From: Thermoproteota archaeon
Lineage (GTDB): Archaea; Korarchaeota; Korarchaeia; Korarchaeales; Korarchaeaceae
Length of the DNA: 51,623 bases
NCBI GenBank assembly: GCA_027491395.1
Contig: JAOZFI010000025.1
Location: forward strand, 1 to 51,623
Direction of reading: 5' to 3'
Part shown: one piece after another, positions 28,280 through 38,371 of the stretch
How positions within the stretch are numbered: position 1 is the stretch's first letter
How the letters are laid out: every line of letters starts with the position of its first letter
Position numbers and translations under genes: made by a program
Notes under the pieces: generated by a model
Told to the model about the DNA's origin: nothing
Databases searched by the model: none
What the model saw: the letters and a program-made list of their open reading frames with translations, nothing else

Positions 28280-28744
28280 GTGTCCATCATGCTAACCTCT
28301 GAGTTAGATGTGCGAATCGATGCTAAGGACAGGCATATCTTGGAGTATCTGTTGGCTAACGGTAGGATGTCCCTGAAGGAGATAGGGAAAAAGCTGGGGA
28401 TAAGCGACGTCGCAGTTAGGAAGAGGATCAAGAAGCTGGAGAGGGCCGGGATAATCAGGGGGTACACGGTCAAGGTCAATCCCTCTGCCTTGGGGTACAC
28501 GGTAGTCTCCCTCACCGGCGTGGATGTGGAGCCGGGCGATCTGATAAGGGTGGCTAGGGAACTGACCAGTAGAGAGTACGTCAAGTCTGCCTGGATCACC
28601 GCTGGAGACCACTCCATCATGCTGGAGATCTGGGCTAGGGACAGCAAGGAGATGGATGAGATATTAGCTGAGATCTCAAAGATGAAGGGGGTTACGAGGG
28701 TCTGCCCTGCAGTCGTAACCCAAAGACTGAAGTCCCGGTGCTAA
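28280..28744 (+). CDS. Lrp/AsnC-family transcription regulator
   Basis: A protein of about 152 residues with the Lrp winged helix (ILEYLLANGRMSLKEIGKKL, then the recognition helix SDVAVRKRIKKLERAGII) and a C-terminal RAM ligand-binding domain ending in a CPAVVTQRLK strand. Such proteins form octamers and sense amino acids. The start is the GTG at 28280 or the ATG at 28289. A TATA-like stretch lies near 28248-28257. It is convergent with a lone RAM-domain gene, and the amino-acid permease downstream of that gene is a plausible target. Confidence 0.9.
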   Translation: MSIMLTSELDVRIDAKDRHILEYLLANGRMSLKEIGKKLGISDVAVRKRIKKLERAGIIRGYTVKVNPSALGYTVVSLTGVDVEPGDLIRVARELTSREYVKSAWITAGDHSIMLEIWARDSKEMDEILAEISKMKGVTRVCPAVVTQRLKSRC

Positions 28745-29052: not shown

Positions 29053-30882
29053 CTATCTGACCCTCATGACCACTAGCCTGCCCCTCACCCTCTCCAAGAG
29101 GGTCTTCGGGAGTTTGTAGGCTTTACCTTTTAACTTACCCCTCCCGAACATGGCGACGAAGTCATAAGGTTCCGCCTCCTTAGCTAGGGAGCTCTCATCC
29201 CCCTTGACCACGAACACCGTCACCTCGTAACCCCTTCTCCTGAGGATCGAAGCCACCTCCTCCAGGTGGGAGAGGACGAGTTCTTCGAGCTGGCGCATCT
29301 CCCCCAAATCCTCTGCTGACACTAGGTCGGTGAGGAAGAGCCTGTGCCTCCTATCGAAGTACTCCATCAGGACCTTGGCCGCCACCTCAGCCGGTATACC
29401 CGGGGGGACTATGACCAGCACCTCCATCTTGTAAGCGGCCGGCCTCACTTCATCGGCATGGAGGCGTCCCGTCACCGGGAGACCCTTTGTCTTCCTGTAG
29501 GCTGAGTAGAGGAGGAGACCCGTAGCGAGCCAGAGCGTGCCCAAGCTCCTCCCAATTGGGTGGAAGACCACCATGAGCACAAGTATTATCAGGGCAGCGA
29601 TGCTTCCAATGACGCCGGTCAGGGGCTTGTCTAGAACGGTGGGACTCTTCCAAGGTCTATAAGCCTCTCTATCCAGTTTCCTAAGTCGGAGGATGGATAG
29701 ATTGACGAACACGTAGGTAATTAGGGCAGCGAAGGTGTAGAGGTCGGCGACCTTCTCAAGACCGCCGAGGAATGTGAGGGCCATCCCTATCCCGCCGAAG
29801 AAGAGGATGGATCGAGTGGGGGTCCTGAACCTAGGGTGGATCTGGTTGAACCAAGAAGGCATTTGGCTGTACTTCGCCATGGAGAAGACTATCCTGGAGA
29901 CACCAACCACCCCGGTGTTCGCTGATGCTAGGTTGACTGTGAAGCCGGTGAACGCCACGAGGTAGGCCAGAGGCTCGCCCACGTAGGCTATTCGCCTCGC
30001 CATTGTCACCAGAGGGCTCTCTAGGTCTCTAGCCAGATGCTCCCAAGGCAGCATCCCCATGCTGAGGACCGAGAGGCCCAGGGCGTACACGAGGACCATC
30101 AGGACCGAGAGCTTGGTCGCCAAGGGGATCCACCTATAGGGCCTCTTTGTCTCCTCAGCAGCCTGTGCGATGGAGGCTATGCCCACATACGAGCTCATAG
30201 CCAGCGTTACCCCGTAGATGAAGTTCTGGCTCCTCAAATCCATGAAAGGTATGTAAGAGACATCGAGAGGATGGGGGGAGCCTATCTGGGTGATCTGAGA
30301 GAGGAAAAGGGGGAGGGAGAAGTTGAAGAGGAAGCCCAGAAGGAGGATGGCTGATTGAACTAGTAGGCTTGGAACGACCATCATCTCGTTAAGGGTAGAC
30401 GACTCCTTGATCCCTATTATATTCACTATGATGAGGAAGGAGATCATCATGAGAGTGGTGATGACGAGGTTTCCGACGTGAAAGGGGCCCACCTGCGTAA
30501 CCTCACCTATCGAGGAGATGAAGTAGCTCAGATACCCCGCTGAGGCCATGGCGAAAAGGGTTATATCCACGGTGTAGGCTAGGAGCATCATCCACCCGGC
30601 CACGAAGCCGGCGAGGTCGTTGAAGGCCTTCATGGAGTAGACCTGAACACCTCCAGCGTAGGGGTAAGTGGAGGCCAGCTCGGCGTAGCTGAGGCCCGTC
30701 GCAACGTAAAGGATCGCCGCCAGCGCGAATGCAAGGGGCGAGCCACCAGCTGCGTAGAGGGCCACGAGTCCAAGCGCGACGTATATATCAGCCCCGACGT
30801 CGGCGTAACCCATGGAGAAGGAGCCGAACCAGCCTATGTCCCTCTTTAGTGCTACCCTCTCCTCCCGCCTCTCCCTCCGCAC
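29053..30882 (-). CDS. APC-family amino acid permease with C-terminal USP-like domain
   Basis: A 609-residue protein. The first 450 residues form twelve membrane helices with APC-family marks (VALYAAGGSPLAFALAAILY, YPYAGGVQVYSMKAF, an AYVGEPLAYL loop). The last 150 residues form a soluble universal-stress-protein-like domain (MEVLVIVPPGIPAEVAAKVL to RVRGRLVVMRVR) that could bind a nucleotide and control transport. It likely imports an amino acid. The following lone RAM-domain gene suggests that amino-acid sensing is linked to it. Confidence 0.88.
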   Translation of the reverse strand: MRRERREERVALKRDIGWFGSFSMGYADVGADIYVALGLVALYAAGGSPLAFALAAILYVATGLSYAELASTYPYAGGVQVYSMKAFNDLAGFVAGWMMLLAYTVDITLFAMASAGYLSYFISSIGEVTQVGPFHVGNLVITTLMMISFLIIVNIIGIKESSTLNEMMVVPSLLVQSAILLLGFLFNFSLPLFLSQITQIGSPHPLDVSYIPFMDLRSQNFIYGVTLAMSSYVGIASIAQAAEETKRPYRWIPLATKLSVLMVLVYALGLSVLSMGMLPWEHLARDLESPLVTMARRIAYVGEPLAYLVAFTGFTVNLASANTGVVGVSRIVFSMAKYSQMPSWFNQIHPRFRTPTRSILFFGGIGMALTFLGGLEKVADLYTFAALITYVFVNLSILRLRKLDREAYRPWKSPTVLDKPLTGVIGSIAALIILVLMVVFHPIGRSLGTLWLATGLLLYSAYRKTKGLPVTGRLHADEVRPAAYKMEVLVIVPPGIPAEVAAKVLMEYFDRRHRLFLTDLVSAEDLGEMRQLEELVLSHLEEVASILRRRGYEVTVFVVKGDESSLAKEAEPYDFVAMFGRGKLKGKAYKLPKTLLERVRGRLVVMRVR

Positions 30883-33008: not shown

Positions 33009-33087
33009 CAAAATTGATTTTGATAACTTATAACCTTTATGATTTCAGCAAACGGCTTTTATTTGAAAACACATTTCTTATATGTGT
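33007..33087. promoter_or_regulatory. AT-rich divergent control region with two palindromes
   Basis: Between the regulator and nurA lies an AT-rich stretch. It holds a palindrome with 7-bp arms (33007-33013 and 33018-33024) and a second, ACACAT-(7)-ATGTGT (33069-33074 and 33082-33087). Both are suited to a dimeric regulator, most simply the product of the adjacent gene. Confidence 0.4.
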
Positions 33088-33152
33088 AGAGCTGTTTTGA
33101 ATACAAAATTTATTCTTACTCAATGCGAAATTACTGTAATAGTACCACTTAA

Positions 33153-33163
33153 TGGTTATAAAG
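33153..33163 (+). promoter_or_regulatory. TATA box of nurA-herA
   Basis: GGTTATAAAGG is about 33 bases before the nurA ATG at 33193, which supports that start over the longer open frame. Confidence 0.45.
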
Positions 33164-33192
33164 GAAAACTTATGCATCACATTGATAACGCC

Positions 33193-34251
33193 ATGTCAAA
33201 CCGATCGGGCAGGAGGTACAGGCTAGCTGGCGAGGAGCTCGATCCGGTGATCGGACCCTATGGGAAGTACCACGAACTTCTGAGGAGTATAGCGTCAGAT
33301 CTCGCCGAGAACCTCTCCGGCATCATCAAGAGGGTCGATGAAATCGCTCCAAAGCTTAGAGACGTGCTCCCCATCTTCGAGTTAAGGGGGAGAGATGCCT
33401 CTTCAGTGAGGATAGGCGCCGTGGACGCTGGGGCCAACGGGAAGGACTTGATCCTAGGCTATCAGCCGGTGAGCGTAGCAGTAGGTGCGGTGTTCATAGG
33501 GACAATGAAGGAAGGCGATCCTGTTGTGGCTACGGTGAAGCCCCCTAGATCCTACTTCGATGACGAGGAGGGCTCCAAGTTCTCCTCCCTTCTTGGCTAC
33601 TACCTCATGTATCGGCTGGGTATAACCCTCTTGGAGAGATCAGATGTCCTCATCTTGGACGGTCCCCTCTTCCTCCCCAGAAATTACTACGGGCCTAGGG
33701 GAAGGGCCCACGCTAGGGCATACTACGAGGTCTACGATGCGGCCCTCCGCTCCCTTGGGGAGCTCTTGAGGACAGCCAGATCCATGGAGAAGATCGTGGT
33801 AGGGATAGTCAAGAGGATCAGGAGCTCGTACATCTCTGGGTGGCTCGGGTTAAGCGGCTATCCCGACTCGATGCTCGCTTCGAGCCTGCTCAGAGAGGGC
33901 GAGGCCTTGGGACCGATTCCTATAAATCCCAAGTGGGAGGATGTCCTCACCTGGCTGGACGACACGAGGCCGTACAGACCTTGGTCCGTGTTCTTCAGAA
34001 GGGGTTCCAAACCCACGAGGATGGATCTCCCGGAGTACGCGCTAGATAACTCTGAATGGTTAGCCAACATCCTCTACAATGTTTCCGAACCTGTTACGGG
34101 TCTCCCCATCCCACTGATAGCCGTGGATAGGCTCTCCAAACTGACCGACAGGCAGGCCTCCCTCATCTACAGGATGATACTCTCGGAGATGGGCTGCAGG
34201 GACCCGGACAGGGTGGCGATGTTCTCCCTTCAAAGGGGTGAGAGCGATTGA
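33193..34251 (+). CDS. nurA: NurA 5'-3' nuclease
   Basis: This nuclease works with HerA in resection of DNA ends. The 352-residue protein has the RNase H-like metal sites of NurA: GAVDAGANGKDL (Asp78 region) and SDVLILDGPLFLPR. A conserved later IAVDRLSKL completes the family pattern. The frame is open to 33082, but the AT-rich, promoter-bearing sequence before 33193 does not look like NurA, and a TATA box lies 33 bases before the ATG at 33193. Its stop overlaps the herA start by 4 bases, so the pair is translationally coupled. Mre11 and Rad50 are not in this window. Confidence 0.92.
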   Translation: MSNRSGRRYRLAGEELDPVIGPYGKYHELLRSIASDLAENLSGIIKRVDEIAPKLRDVLPIFELRGRDASSVRIGAVDAGANGKDLILGYQPVSVAVGAVFIGTMKEGDPVVATVKPPRSYFDDEEGSKFSSLLGYYLMYRLGITLLERSDVLILDGPLFLPRNYYGPRGRAHARAYYEVYDAALRSLGELLRTARSMEKIVVGIVKRIRSSYISGWLGLSGYPDSMLASSLLREGEALGPIPINPKWEDVLTWLDDTRPYRPWSVFFRRGSKPTRMDLPEYALDNSEWLANILYNVSEPVTGLPIPLIAVDRLSKLTDRQASLIYRMILSEMGCRDPDRVAMFSLQRGESD

Positions 34252-36803
34252 CTGATGTGGTCGGCCATGTGATCTCCCGCTCTACTCCCAGAAGGATCAT
34301 GTTCGTGGTCCTGAAGGGGGCCAGAGTTGGAATGGGGGATTTTTACGTGGTCGACCATCCTTGGAAGGGAGTTCCCGTCTTCATAAGGGTTAGGGAAATC
34401 CAGACCATAAATGAGGAAGTGGATCTGGGAAGGACGGGTCTCCTCGCCAGCAGCTCGGGACTCCTCTCGGACTATAGCAGTGAGCTGGAGTACGTGATAG
34501 TGGAGAGTGAGGTCCTGGGGTACAGGGATCCGGAGAGCGGCAGGATAAGGGGACTAGAGACCCCTCCATCAACCCTTTCACCTGTCAGGCGGCCATCTAG
34601 GTCTGATCTGATCTCCTTCTTAGGATCTGGGAATGGTAGGGGCCTACCCGTGAGAATAGGGAGGGTCAAGGGAACGTCGGTCCCGTTCCACTTGGACCTC
34701 GCCTCGGTGGCTAGGGGTCACATGTTCGTGACCGGGATGACCAGAAGCGGGAAGAGCGTTACCGAGGACACGATCGTCCTCCTCTTCAACAGGGAGAAGG
34801 GGAAGTACTTCCTAGGCCCCATAAGGAAGTTCGTGGACCCCTACCTCCCAAGGAGGGCTAGGAGGGGGATAGTGGACATGAGAGGGTGGGGGTGGGAGAC
34901 CCTCACCTTGGGCCCCGGGATGAGACCCGAGTGGAGACCTATAGCAGGTGCCCTGAGGCATGTGAACGACAAGGAGATATACGAGATCGAGACGGCCACT
35001 GGGAGGAGGATCAGGGTCACTGAGGACCACAGCCTGCTCGTCACCCCAGACGGGACGAGCATCATACCCGTCAAGCCCAAGACTCTCATGGCCATGAGGA
35101 GCAAGTACCTGATAGTGCCTAGGGGGGCTCCCCTACCGAAGCCCAAGTCCACCAGCATGTACATGGACAGGCTCATAGGCATTGCCTTGGCTTCTGGGGT
35201 CCCTTATTTTGAGGGTGGGGTCCTCGTAATGGATTCATCGCCCGCAGACGTGAGAGTCGCATGCATGGAGGCAGGAGTGGACTGCGAGGCCATGGGCAGG
35301 GCTGCGGTACGCGTCAGATCCGAGCTTCTCATGGACGCCGTGGCGGAGGGACTGGCCTCAATACTCAACCTCCCGATGAGCCACCAGCACTTCACCGGCT
35401 CCTTTCTGTATCCCCTGCCCAGCGCCCTCAAAGAATACCTCTACAGGAGGCTCCTCCCCTACGTAAACGGGAAGTCCGTGGTGATGATGGAGAGCGAGGA
35501 CAGGGTGCTCGCGTCCTCCATTCTGCTCTCACTGATTGGAGTTACGACCCTAGAGATGTGCGATAGGGGACTGAAGCTGGATCCGGCCACAGCTGCTATG
35601 CTCAGGGACAAGCTGGAGATGCCGCACATGTTCGTGGAGGAGATGGATGGAGCTCTAACGCTTGGCGATCCGAGGAGGGAGACCAAGGTAGCTGAAGGGG
35701 TCGTCCAGAAGGGATGGGTCGACTTGGAGAGAGTGGTGAGAGTCGAGAGGCTGTATTCTAGACGCGAGTTCGTGTACGATCTGGATGTGCCGGGAGCCCA
35801 GAACTTCCTCGCCAACGGGATCTTCGCCCACAACAGCAGCTTCGTCTCCAGCCTCATTTCAAAGTCGTCGCAGCTCCATCCTAGGCCTAGTTTCCTCGTT
35901 CTGGACAGGAGGGGGGAGTACGTCGGGCTGGCGAAGAGAGGAGCCGTGATCTACGACTACACAGCATTCCTTCCCAAGCACGGACTGGCTAGGCCTAGTG
36001 ACGTGGCGAGGAGGTTGGGGTACAGGAGGGGAACCCTCTCCCACCGGCTCGTGCTCTCGGCGGCTGAGGAGGTCATGAGCGAGGGCGAGGAGCCGGACCT
36101 CCAATCCCTGATCAGGGCGATCAGGAGGGTAGCGAGGGAGATGAAGGTCAAATCCTCACTCGTGGCCGAAGTGGAGGCTAGGTTGAGGAGGGAGCTCCCT
36201 AATCTAGTGGCTGGGGGCGGTGGCCTCGATGTGGTCGAGGAGGTGATGAAGAACCCCCTCATCATAGTGGACCTCTCCTCAGACACTAGGTATGAGGACC
36301 AATTTTACGCGGTCAGGGAGATGGTAAGGAGGCTCACCAATTACGCCGTGTCTAGGAGGAACGAGGGGGACTTCGCCCTCATCGTGGTCATAGAGGAAGC
36401 CCAGTATCTAGTCCCGGAGAGGGGTTACACCATAGTGGGGGACCCCTACGAGGCTGGAGCGGCCCAGGCCATAATAGAGGCGATAAGCCAGGCCGGCGGC
36501 TACAACTTGGGCTTCGTGGTGGTGACCCAGAGGCCGGCATACGTGAGCAAGAGCGTGATCAGCCAGACCAACACGGTGGCGGCGTTCAGGTTGAGGAATG
36601 GGAACGATCAGGAGGCCATCATGAAGTACACCGAGGCGGAGGATTTCTCCAATTACTTGGCGATGCTCTCCGACCACGAAGCTTTGGTGTGGGGCATGGC
36701 CAGCCCCATACCCTTCCCGGTGCAGGTGGAGGTGGAAGTGGTGAGCCTGCCGGCGAAGGCCTCTAGGCCGCCGGAGGAGGCTTGGGCGCGCATGCACGGG
36801 TAA
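34248..36803 (+). CDS. herA: HerA hexameric DNA translocase containing a P-loop intein
   Basis: The precursor has 851 residues, and removal of the intein leaves 491, normal for HerA. The N-terminal HAS-barrel (1-150) leads into Walker A, GMTRSGK-S, interrupted after Lys169 by the intein (residues 170-529). Restored, the loop reads GMTRSGKS followed by SFVSSLIS. Walker B is IVVIEEAQYLVPERG, and downstream are RNEGDFALIVV and a sensor region VVVTQRPAYVSKSVISQTN. HerA pumps DNA and drives NurA in end resection. The start is a TTG at 34248 overlapping nurA. Activity should depend on splicing, since the key loop is split. Confidence 0.95.
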   Translation: MTDVVGHVISRSTPRRIMFVVLKGARVGMGDFYVVDHPWKGVPVFIRVREIQTINEEVDLGRTGLLASSSGLLSDYSSELEYVIVESEVLGYRDPESGRIRGLETPPSTLSPVRRPSRSDLISFLGSGNGRGLPVRIGRVKGTSVPFHLDLASVARGHMFVTGMTRSGKSVTEDTIVLLFNREKGKYFLGPIRKFVDPYLPRRARRGIVDMRGWGWETLTLGPGMRPEWRPIAGALRHVNDKEIYEIETATGRRIRVTEDHSLLVTPDGTSIIPVKPKTLMAMRSKYLIVPRGAPLPKPKSTSMYMDRLIGIALASGVPYFEGGVLVMDSSPADVRVACMEAGVDCEAMGRAAVRVRSELLMDAVAEGLASILNLPMSHQHFTGSFLYPLPSALKEYLYRRLLPYVNGKSVVMMESEDRVLASSILLSLIGVTTLEMCDRGLKLDPATAAMLRDKLEMPHMFVEEMDGALTLGDPRRETKVAEGVVQKGWVDLERVVRVERLYSRREFVYDLDVPGAQNFLANGIFAHNSSFVSSLISKSSQLHPRPSFLVLDRRGEYVGLAKRGAVIYDYTAFLPKHGLARPSDVARRLGYRRGTLSHRLVLSAAEEVMSEGEEPDLQSLIRAIRRVAREMKVKSSLVAEVEARLRRELPNLVAGGGGLDVVEEVMKNPLIIVDLSSDTRYEDQFYAVREMVRRLTNYAVSRRNEGDFALIVVIEEAQYLVPERGYTIVGDPYEAGAAQAIIEAISQAGGYNLGFVVVTQRPAYVSKSVISQTNTVAAFRLRNGNDQEAIMKYTEAEDFSNYLAMLSDHEALVWGMASPIPFPVQVEVEVVSLPAKASRPPEEAWARMHG
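34755..35834 (+). mobile_element. Intein in HerA Walker A motif with degenerate LAGLIDADG endonuclease
   Basis: A 360-residue in-frame insert starts with Ser (SVTEDTIVLL), contains the block B histidine in VTEDHS (residue 261 of the precursor), and ends with FAHN followed by Ser+1. This is a complete splicing domain set. The centre corresponds to a homing endonuclease, but the motif helices read DRLIGIALASG (307-317) and YLYRRLLPYVNG (397-408). Both lack the acidic residue that binds metal in LAGLIDADG enzymes. So splicing looks functional, while homing is probably lost. Confidence 0.88.
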
Positions 36804-36850
36804 AAATTTTAACATACTCACTTTTTATAGAACGGAACGGCCTATGCCCT

Positions 36851-38371
36851 ATGAGTTCGTTCAACCCCATTCCAGAGGGGTCGAGGCGAGTCAGAATATT
36901 CGACTCGACCCTCAGTCAGGGGGAGCTGGTCCCAGGCATATCCTTCTCAACCCAAGCAAAGATGGAGATAGCCATGAACCTCGACGCCCTCGGCGTTGAC
37001 GTGATAGAGGCTGGATTCCCCGCTGCCTCCGAGGGAGAGAGAAAGGCTGTTTCCGAAGTGGTCAAGGCCGTTAAACGCATATCCAGAGCTGGATTCTCTG
37101 CAGAGATATGCGCCTTGGCCAGAGCCCTCCCAACAGATGTGGAGCTTGCCTTGGAGACCGAGGCGGACTGCGTTCACATCTTCATGCCCGCGAGCAAGCT
37201 CCACCTCGAGAAGAGGCTGAGGATGAGCTACGAGGAGGCCTTAAATCACGTGATGGACTCGGTGAGCAAGGCAAAGTCGGGAGGGGCCGTGGTGGAGTTC
37301 ACCGCTGAGGACGCGTCTAGGGCCGATCCTGATTTCCTCTGGAGGCTCTGCAAGGGTGCTGAGGAGGCTGGGGCCGACAGGGTAAATCTCACCGATTCTG
37401 TTGGCGCGCTCACGCCAGAGGGAGCCGCTAACATGGTCAGGGAGGCAAAGAAGCACCTCACCAAGCCCGTTAGCGTGGCCTTCTTCAACGATCTGGGAAT
37501 GGCTACCGCAAATTCCGTGGCCGCGGTCCTCGCTGGGGCCGATCAGGTTCACACTTCCGTCAATGGGCTCGGGCCCAAGGCGGGACTGGCCCCCTTGGAG
37601 CAGGTCGCCGTTGCTCTTAAAGAGCTCGCGCAGGTGGAGACGGGAGTTCAGCTTCAGCTCCTGTCTGAGGTGAGCGAGCTCGTGGAGAGATTGAGCGGAG
37701 TGCCTATATACGAGATCGCCCCTATAGTCGGTCCTCTCACTTACACTTACGAGGCAGGCGTGCATGTCCACGCGATATCGGTTGACCCCTCCACATACGA
37801 GCTCATCCCTCCGGAGAGGGTCGGTAGGAGGAGGCGCTTCATAGTGGGCAAGCTGTCGGGCAGGACTGCCGTGGTGCAGACCCTCAGGGAGATGGGTTAC
37901 GAGGCGGATGAGACCAAGGTGGAGGAGATACTCGCCAAGGTGAAGGAGCTGGCCGATAAAGGCGTGAGGATAACTGAGGGCATCTTCAGGTCCATAGTGG
38001 AGGAGGTGTTCGGCGAGGGCAGGGGTAAGTGGTTCGAGGTCCTCGAATGGATGGTCGTGACTGGGAGCGGCGTGACCCCCACAGCTCAGGTGAGGGCGAG
38101 GGTAGGGGACAGGGAGCTCCGGGCCGCATCCTTCGGTGTCGGTCCCGTAGACGCTCTAGCGAATACCATGAGATCTTTGGAGGGGGTTCCGGACTTCAAG
38201 CTCAGGAGGTTCAGGTTGAGAGCCATCTCATCCGGCACCGACGCGATAGGCGAGGTGCTGATAAGGGTTCTCGGACCCAAAGGTGAGGTGGAAGCGAGCG
38301 GGACCAGTCCAGACATACTCGAGGCCTCACTCAAGGCCTTGGAGGATTCGATAAACAAGATCAAGGAGTGA
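36851..38371 (+). CDS. LeuA-like (2-isopropylmalate synthase family) protein lacking the catalytic metal site
   Basis: The 506-residue protein has the full architecture of isopropylmalate/homocitrate synthases: a TIM barrel (about 10-280), linker helices, and a C-terminal LeuA regulatory domain (about 400-506). The active site is gone. RDGEQ reads SQGEL (residues 22-26), so the catalytic Arg and metal Asp are Ser22 and Gln23. The HxH metal pair is Ala210-Phe211-Phe212 in AFFND. The GERxGN loop is GPKAGL, and GKHSG is GKLSG. The frame is intact and barrel-supporting motifs (VIEAGFPAAS, VEFTAEDASR, GLGMAT-like) are kept, so it is not decayed. The start ATG has a TATA box (36823-36830) 21-28 bases upstream. 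A regulatory or amino-acid-sensing role is inferred. Confidence 0.8.
   Translation: MSSFNPIPEGSRRVRIFDSTLSQGELVPGISFSTQAKMEIAMNLDALGVDVIEAGFPAASEGERKAVSEVVKAVKRISRAGFSAEICALARALPTDVELALETEADCVHIFMPASKLHLEKRLRMSYEEALNHVMDSVSKAKSGGAVVEFTAEDASRADPDFLWRLCKGAEEAGADRVNLTDSVGALTPEGAANMVREAKKHLTKPVSVAFFNDLGMATANSVAAVLAGADQVHTSVNGLGPKAGLAPLEQVAVALKELAQVETGVQLQLLSEVSELVERLSGVPIYEIAPIVGPLTYTYEAGVHVHAISVDPSTYELIPPERVGRRRRFIVGKLSGRTAVVQTLREMGYEADETKVEEILAKVKELADKGVRITEGIFRSIVEEVFGEGRGKWFEVLEWMVVTGSGVTPTAQVRARVGDRELRAASFGVGPVDALANTMRSLEGVPDFKLRRFRLRAISSGTDAIGEVLIRVLGPKGEVEASGTSPDILEASLKALEDSINKIKE

Follow-up and report, generated by a model that had tools for sequence, protein, structure and literature searches.

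2-Isopropylmalate synthase (LeuA; NF002085 / TIGR02090) is composed of three domains (PF00682, PF22617 and PF08502). In methylthioalkylmalate (MAM) synthase, the metal is bound by Asp90, His288 and His290, and the oxo acid by Arg89 and Thr257. The general base, His388, is at the center of a linked set that also includes Glu227 and Tyr399 (PMC11532901). MAM synthase with R89A, R89K or R89Q has no activity, and Q93A and Q93N are also inactive (PMC11532901). Similarly, R80A and R80K abolish the activity of Mycobacterium tuberculosis isopropylmalate synthase (IPMS) (PMC10464499). In that enzyme, His379 and Tyr410 are supplied by chain B, the partner subunit (PMC5498780), and in MAM synthase the C-terminal domain contributes to the CoA site of the neighboring subunit (PMC8468904).

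Catalytically dead paralogs are known in other families. The trypanosomatid prozymes of AdoMetDC and deoxyhypusine synthase exist beside an active paralog (PMC5201418, PMC3663545). Our search of open-licence papers turned up no pseudo-enzyme from the isopropylmalate synthase family.

Here we describe a LeuA-family protein, pseudo-LeuA, that has the whole domain architecture of LeuA and lacks its catalytic Arg and metal site. The gene is in a window of 51,623 nucleotides (the whole stretch of DNA analyzed) from a genome that is 98% complete (G000). We take the genus to be Korarchaeum, a name that rests on one member, presumably Korarchaeum cryptofilum OPF8 (G010; one contig, 1,590,757 bases).

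Results

Pseudo-LeuA has an intact frame and altered active-site motifs

The open reading frame (36851..38371, + strand, stop included) starts with ATG and encodes 506 amino acids. All three Pfam domains scored far above their cut-offs: an HMGL-like TIM barrel (PF00682; residues 13-278, 36887..37684, 237.7 bits), the post-barrel linker HCS_D2 (PF22617; residues 292-371, 37724..37963) and the LeuA_dimer regulatory domain (PF08502; residues 374-504, 37970..38362, 95.2 bits), all on the + strand like the residues described below. The regulatory domain contains a GVGPVDA motif, matching the GxGPVDA of LeuA, and G429, V430, G431, P432 and D434 are invariant across the orthologs of pseudo-LeuA. These results agree with a preliminary description of this DNA, which held that the barrel scaffold and the regulatory domain remain. 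With the NCBIfam model for LeuA (NF002085), pseudo-LeuA scored 512.7 bits, just below the cut-off of 517; the LeuA paralog from the same genome scored 669.8.

An AlphaFold model of the monomer was mostly confident in the barrel and the regulatory domain and poor in the linker (residues 285-335), which carries His305 and Tyr316. Its matches in the PDB were homocitrate, methylthioalkylmalate and isopropylmalate synthases. The best solved structures by both sequence and fold, Sulfolobus acidocaldarius homocitrate synthase (6ktq) and Brassica juncea MAM synthase (6e1j), are active enzymes with a metal site, unlike pseudo-LeuA. Whereas 6e1j has lost the regulatory domain (PMC8468904), pseudo-LeuA has lost the catalytic site instead.

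The translation bears out the motif changes reported in the preliminary description. Where active synthases read RDGEQ, pseudo-LeuA reads SQGEL, with Ser22-Gln23 (36914..36919) replacing the catalytic Arg and a metal-binding Asp. Ala210-Phe211-Phe212 (37478..37486) replaces the metal-binding HxH, and GPKAGL (residues 241-246; 37571..37588) replaces GERxGN. A further loss had been claimed at GKHSG. We do not uphold it, as the alignment shows GKLSG in two active synthases as well, 3rmj and 6e1j.

The acetyl-CoA half of the active site is kept

The preliminary description regarded the active site as removed. This is correct for the Arg and all three metal ligands and incorrect for three other residues: Glu153 (37307..37309), His305 (37763..37765) and Tyr316 (37796..37798). 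In the alignment to 6e1j, these correspond to Glu227, His388 (the general base) and Tyr399, the linked set in MAM synthase (PMC11532901). Ser22 corresponds to Arg89, Gln23 to Asp90, Leu26 to Gln93 and Ser183 to Thr257. The Glu-Tyr-His triad, shared with LeuA, is invariant in all full-length orthologs. All of them have lost the keto-acid/metal half (R, D, HxH, GERxGN and the NAFxHxSGI segment), with GPKAG(L/I/M) in place of GERxGN.

We compared the orthologs with 39 active-type archaeal sequences, in which 92 positions are essentially invariant. Sixty of these are kept in all orthologs and 13 are lost in all (22, 23, 32, 140, 210, 211, 242, 243, 246, 296, 297, 300 and 304). Along the sequence, all but one of the 13 (12/13) fall within active-site motifs or close to them, and none is in the regulatory domain (a weak enrichment; P = 0.057, simple draw). 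At or close to the lost positions, the orthologs have gained invariant residues of their own (F32, F211, P242, K243, L296, Y300 and V304). Judged by alignment, the discarded half is that for the oxo acid and metal, and the kept half is that for acetyl-CoA. Five active-type archaeal synthases (L026, L028, L030, L033 and L079) have Met and Phe jointly in place of the Glu and Tyr. Thus, the fold does not require the Glu-Tyr pair, though all orthologs of pseudo-LeuA keep it.

Because published mutants of the equivalent Arg are inactive, we expect with high confidence that pseudo-LeuA does not catalyze the LeuA reaction. It might instead have been repurposed for metal-free acyl-CoA chemistry (e.g., hydrolysis or transfer), using the triad and a remodeled pocket. 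Besides the triad, a set of invariant residues specific to pseudo-LeuA (V27, F32, F211, P242, K243, P248, L296, Y300 and V304) clusters, in sequence, around the former active-site motifs, and the gene is under strong purifying selection (see below). A conserved remodeled pocket would suit a new enzymatic activity, and this counts against a regulatory role. However, position 212 varies among the orthologs (F/Y/H/S), as does position 183 (S/T/P). Moreover, the Gln that contacts acetyl-CoA is Leu or Met in all orthologs except that of one genome (G002), and changing this Gln inactivates MAM synthase (Q93A/N; PMC11532901). We regard a repurposed enzyme as unlikely.

Pseudo-LeuA is conserved in one genus and had a single origin

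The gene was present in 15 of the 16 genomes of the genus, at 62-97% identity. The sixteenth (G014), without the gene, is 70% complete. One genome (G004) contributed only a fragment at a contig edge, and the ortholog set consisted of 15 full-length sequences from 14 genomes. Two of these are from G015 (7% contamination), in which the second copy, closely related to the G007 sequence, likely comes from contamination.

We found no ortholog that retained RDGEQ and HxH. In all 15 full-length sequences, the catalytic Arg is replaced by Ser or Thr, the metal Asp by Gln or Leu, and the first metal His by Ala or Thr; Phe211, Pro242 and Lys243 are invariant. The position of the second metal His is Phe, Tyr or Ser, with His retained in three sequences. 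Since no sequence has kept the Arg, the Asp or the first His, chance and sequencing error are excluded.

In the phylogenetic tree, the 15 sequences formed one clade (support 100/100) on a long stem (1.01), with conservation afterwards. The LeuA of the genus was the closest active-type match, at about 50% identity, and the exact sister relation between the two was weakly supported (81/27). For unsaturated pairs, dN/dS was 0.04-0.12, indicating purifying selection and near the values for LeuA in the same species pairs. Between G000 and G010, dN of the barrel was 0.30 for pseudo-LeuA and 0.12 for LeuA, whereas dN of the regulatory domain was similar (0.26 and 0.24, respectively). The barrel has thus diverged faster than that of LeuA and the regulatory domain has not, which is consistent with a relaxed catalytic and a maintained regulatory constraint.

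The loss of catalytic residues could in principle reflect a decaying pseudogene or an assembly or sequencing error. The shared substitutions, the dN/dS well under 1, the single ancient origin and the full-length open frames in 14 genomes rule this out for practical purposes. The shared losses and single origin agree with the preliminary description of a conserved pseudo-enzyme.

Within the data searched, we did not find pseudo-LeuA outside the genus. The pseudo-LeuA-specific pattern NGLGPKAG was absent outside the genus among 29 genomes of the phylum, and a scan of GTDB contigs with six short query peptides returned only genus members and one 32% homolog. In 394 genomes from a different archaeal phylum, only two matches passed a strict limit (best identity 44%); these two, and the best matches from a further small phylum, read RDGEQ. 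In other genera of the family, we found neither LeuA nor pseudo-LeuA.

Pseudo-LeuA is encoded next to nurA and herA

The source genome encodes three HMGL-like proteins, including pseudo-LeuA. An active-type LeuA paralog belongs to a leuA-leuC-leuD-leuB cluster on contig C41; the preliminary description had proposed looking for an active one. The small gene of this cluster is presumably leuD, from its position and sequence. The third protein (447 amino acids, with TTLRDGQQ; L003, 1105-2448, - strand, contig C28) was below every NCBIfam cut-off. Its gene adjoins aconitase-like and isocitrate-dehydrogenase-like genes, an arrangement that resembles a Re-citrate synthase operon, and we take the protein to be Re-citrate synthase.

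The pseudo-LeuA gene is outside the leu cluster. Upstream of it, on the + strand, are a gene for a HerA-like ATPase (34248..36803), its immediate neighbor, and a NurA-like gene (33082..34251). The HerA-like ATPase has an intein-like insert inside the Walker A region, beginning VTEDTIVLLF after GMTRSGKS and ending ANGIFAHN before SS. HerA proteins of other genus members are of similar length (830-856 amino acids). A few kb upstream of pseudo-LeuA are genes for an Lrp/AsnC-like regulator (28280-28744) and an amino-acid-permease-like protein (29053-30882), both syntenic in several relatives.

Of the 14 genomes in which the surroundings of the gene were read, 13 had herA directly upstream, and nurA as well where the contig extends. 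The exception was G002, in which the gene is elsewhere, near phosphate-transport-like genes. Approximately 25 nt upstream of the ATG is a TATA-like element, CTTTTTATAGAA (36821..36832, + strand), that is conserved among near relatives. From the layout of archaeal promoters, this element suggests a separate, leaderless transcript for pseudo-LeuA.

The location near nurA-herA rather than in the leu cluster also counts against a regulatory role. It could indicate that pseudo-LeuA is a structural or scaffolding protein for the NurA-HerA machinery, outside amino-acid metabolism, as the presence of herA directly upstream in 13/14 genomes, and of nurA where the contig extends, would fit. However, the copy in G002 is not near them, near relatives carry the gene's own TATA-like element, and no link between the families is known. 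We consider a scaffolding role very improbable.

A genome with pseudo-LeuA apparently lacks the leucine pathway

Normal LeuA was present in 14 of the 15 genomes that carry pseudo-LeuA. The remaining genome (G002, L070) is 99% complete, and its pseudo-LeuA is intact, with the same triad. In G002 we did not find an active LeuA, the LeuB of the leu cluster, or a full-length LeuC of the leu cluster (there was one partial aconitase-like match, on contig C14), nor did we find IlvC, IlvD or an IlvB-type TPP enzyme. The counterparts in G010 of the missing genes are at three separate loci (near 189-193 kb, 649-652 kb and 916 kb), and leuA/leuB, ilvB/ilvC and ilvD are all missing, making a simple assembly gap unlikely as the cause of the absence of LeuA. 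G002 is apparently a branched-chain amino acid auxotroph that retains pseudo-LeuA.

Since G002 keeps pseudo-LeuA and apparently lacks LeuA, the function of the protein cannot rest on LeuA alone. That the gene is retained there with no leucine/valine pathway also counts against a ligand-sensing regulator. This weakens one version of the earlier reading, in which pseudo-LeuA is the partner of an active synthase. A strict form of that version is a regulatory subunit of LeuA only, in a prozyme-like mixed dimer: its own barrel would be dead, and His305 and Tyr316 would be supplied in trans to the intact barrel of LeuA. The identity of about 50% to the LeuA of the genus, the retained dimerization domains, the co-occurrence with LeuA in 14/15 carriers and the invariance of both interface-crossing residues (PMC5498780, PMC8468904) are what such a subunit would show, and there is precedent for dead paralogs that activate their partners (PMC5201418, PMC3663545). 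It accounts poorly for the intact copy in G002, for the retention of Glu153, which would be useful only to the dead barrel, and for a gene that is not co-located with leuA. We think a LeuA-only subunit rather unlikely.

Discussion

Our best reading, held tentatively, is that pseudo-LeuA is a non-catalytic, ancient duplicate of LeuA that has been kept as a ligand-sensing regulator, possibly in a mixed dimer with LeuA where LeuA is present. Taking its parts separately, pseudo-LeuA is probably a ligand-binding regulator, and its pairing with LeuA, where LeuA exists, is somewhat short of an even chance. The likelihoods that we attach to these two parts and to the lack of LeuA activity are judgments and were not computed.

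As a ligand-sensing regulator, pseudo-LeuA would have arisen from a LeuA duplicate that lost isopropylmalate synthase function before the radiation of the genus, after which selection would have retained the non-catalytic protein. It would still form the LeuA dimer, with His305 and Tyr316 reaching into the neighboring subunit. Leucine is the likeliest of the branched-chain amino acids that the LeuA_dimer domain would bind, and acetyl-CoA may bind in the composite cleft. Binding of ligand would then alter which protein is contacted. Where LeuA is present, it would be the likeliest contact, and its activity or its inhibition by leucine would be tuned within a mixed dimer. Pseudo-LeuA of the apparently auxotrophic lineage would act alone or on another target. 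A half-site pseudo-enzyme that senses acetyl-CoA and leucine on its own, independently of LeuA, and outlives the leucine pathway is to our minds an unlikely variant.

In 14 of its 15 carriers, pseudo-LeuA is like the trypanosomatid prozymes in that a dead paralog exists beside an active one. The two differ in fold, the complex of pseudo-LeuA with LeuA is putative, and one lineage with pseudo-LeuA (G002) keeps the dead copy and has apparently lost the active one.

Automatic annotation could label pseudo-LeuA as leuA, so that leucine synthesis would be wrongly attributed to genomes like G002. LeuA and pseudo-LeuA together are also a natural experiment on the change from a metabolic enzyme to a regulator: the active and the dead copy occur in the same species with the same architecture, only the acetyl-CoA half of the site outlasted the loss of the substrate half, and the active partner was apparently removed in one lineage.
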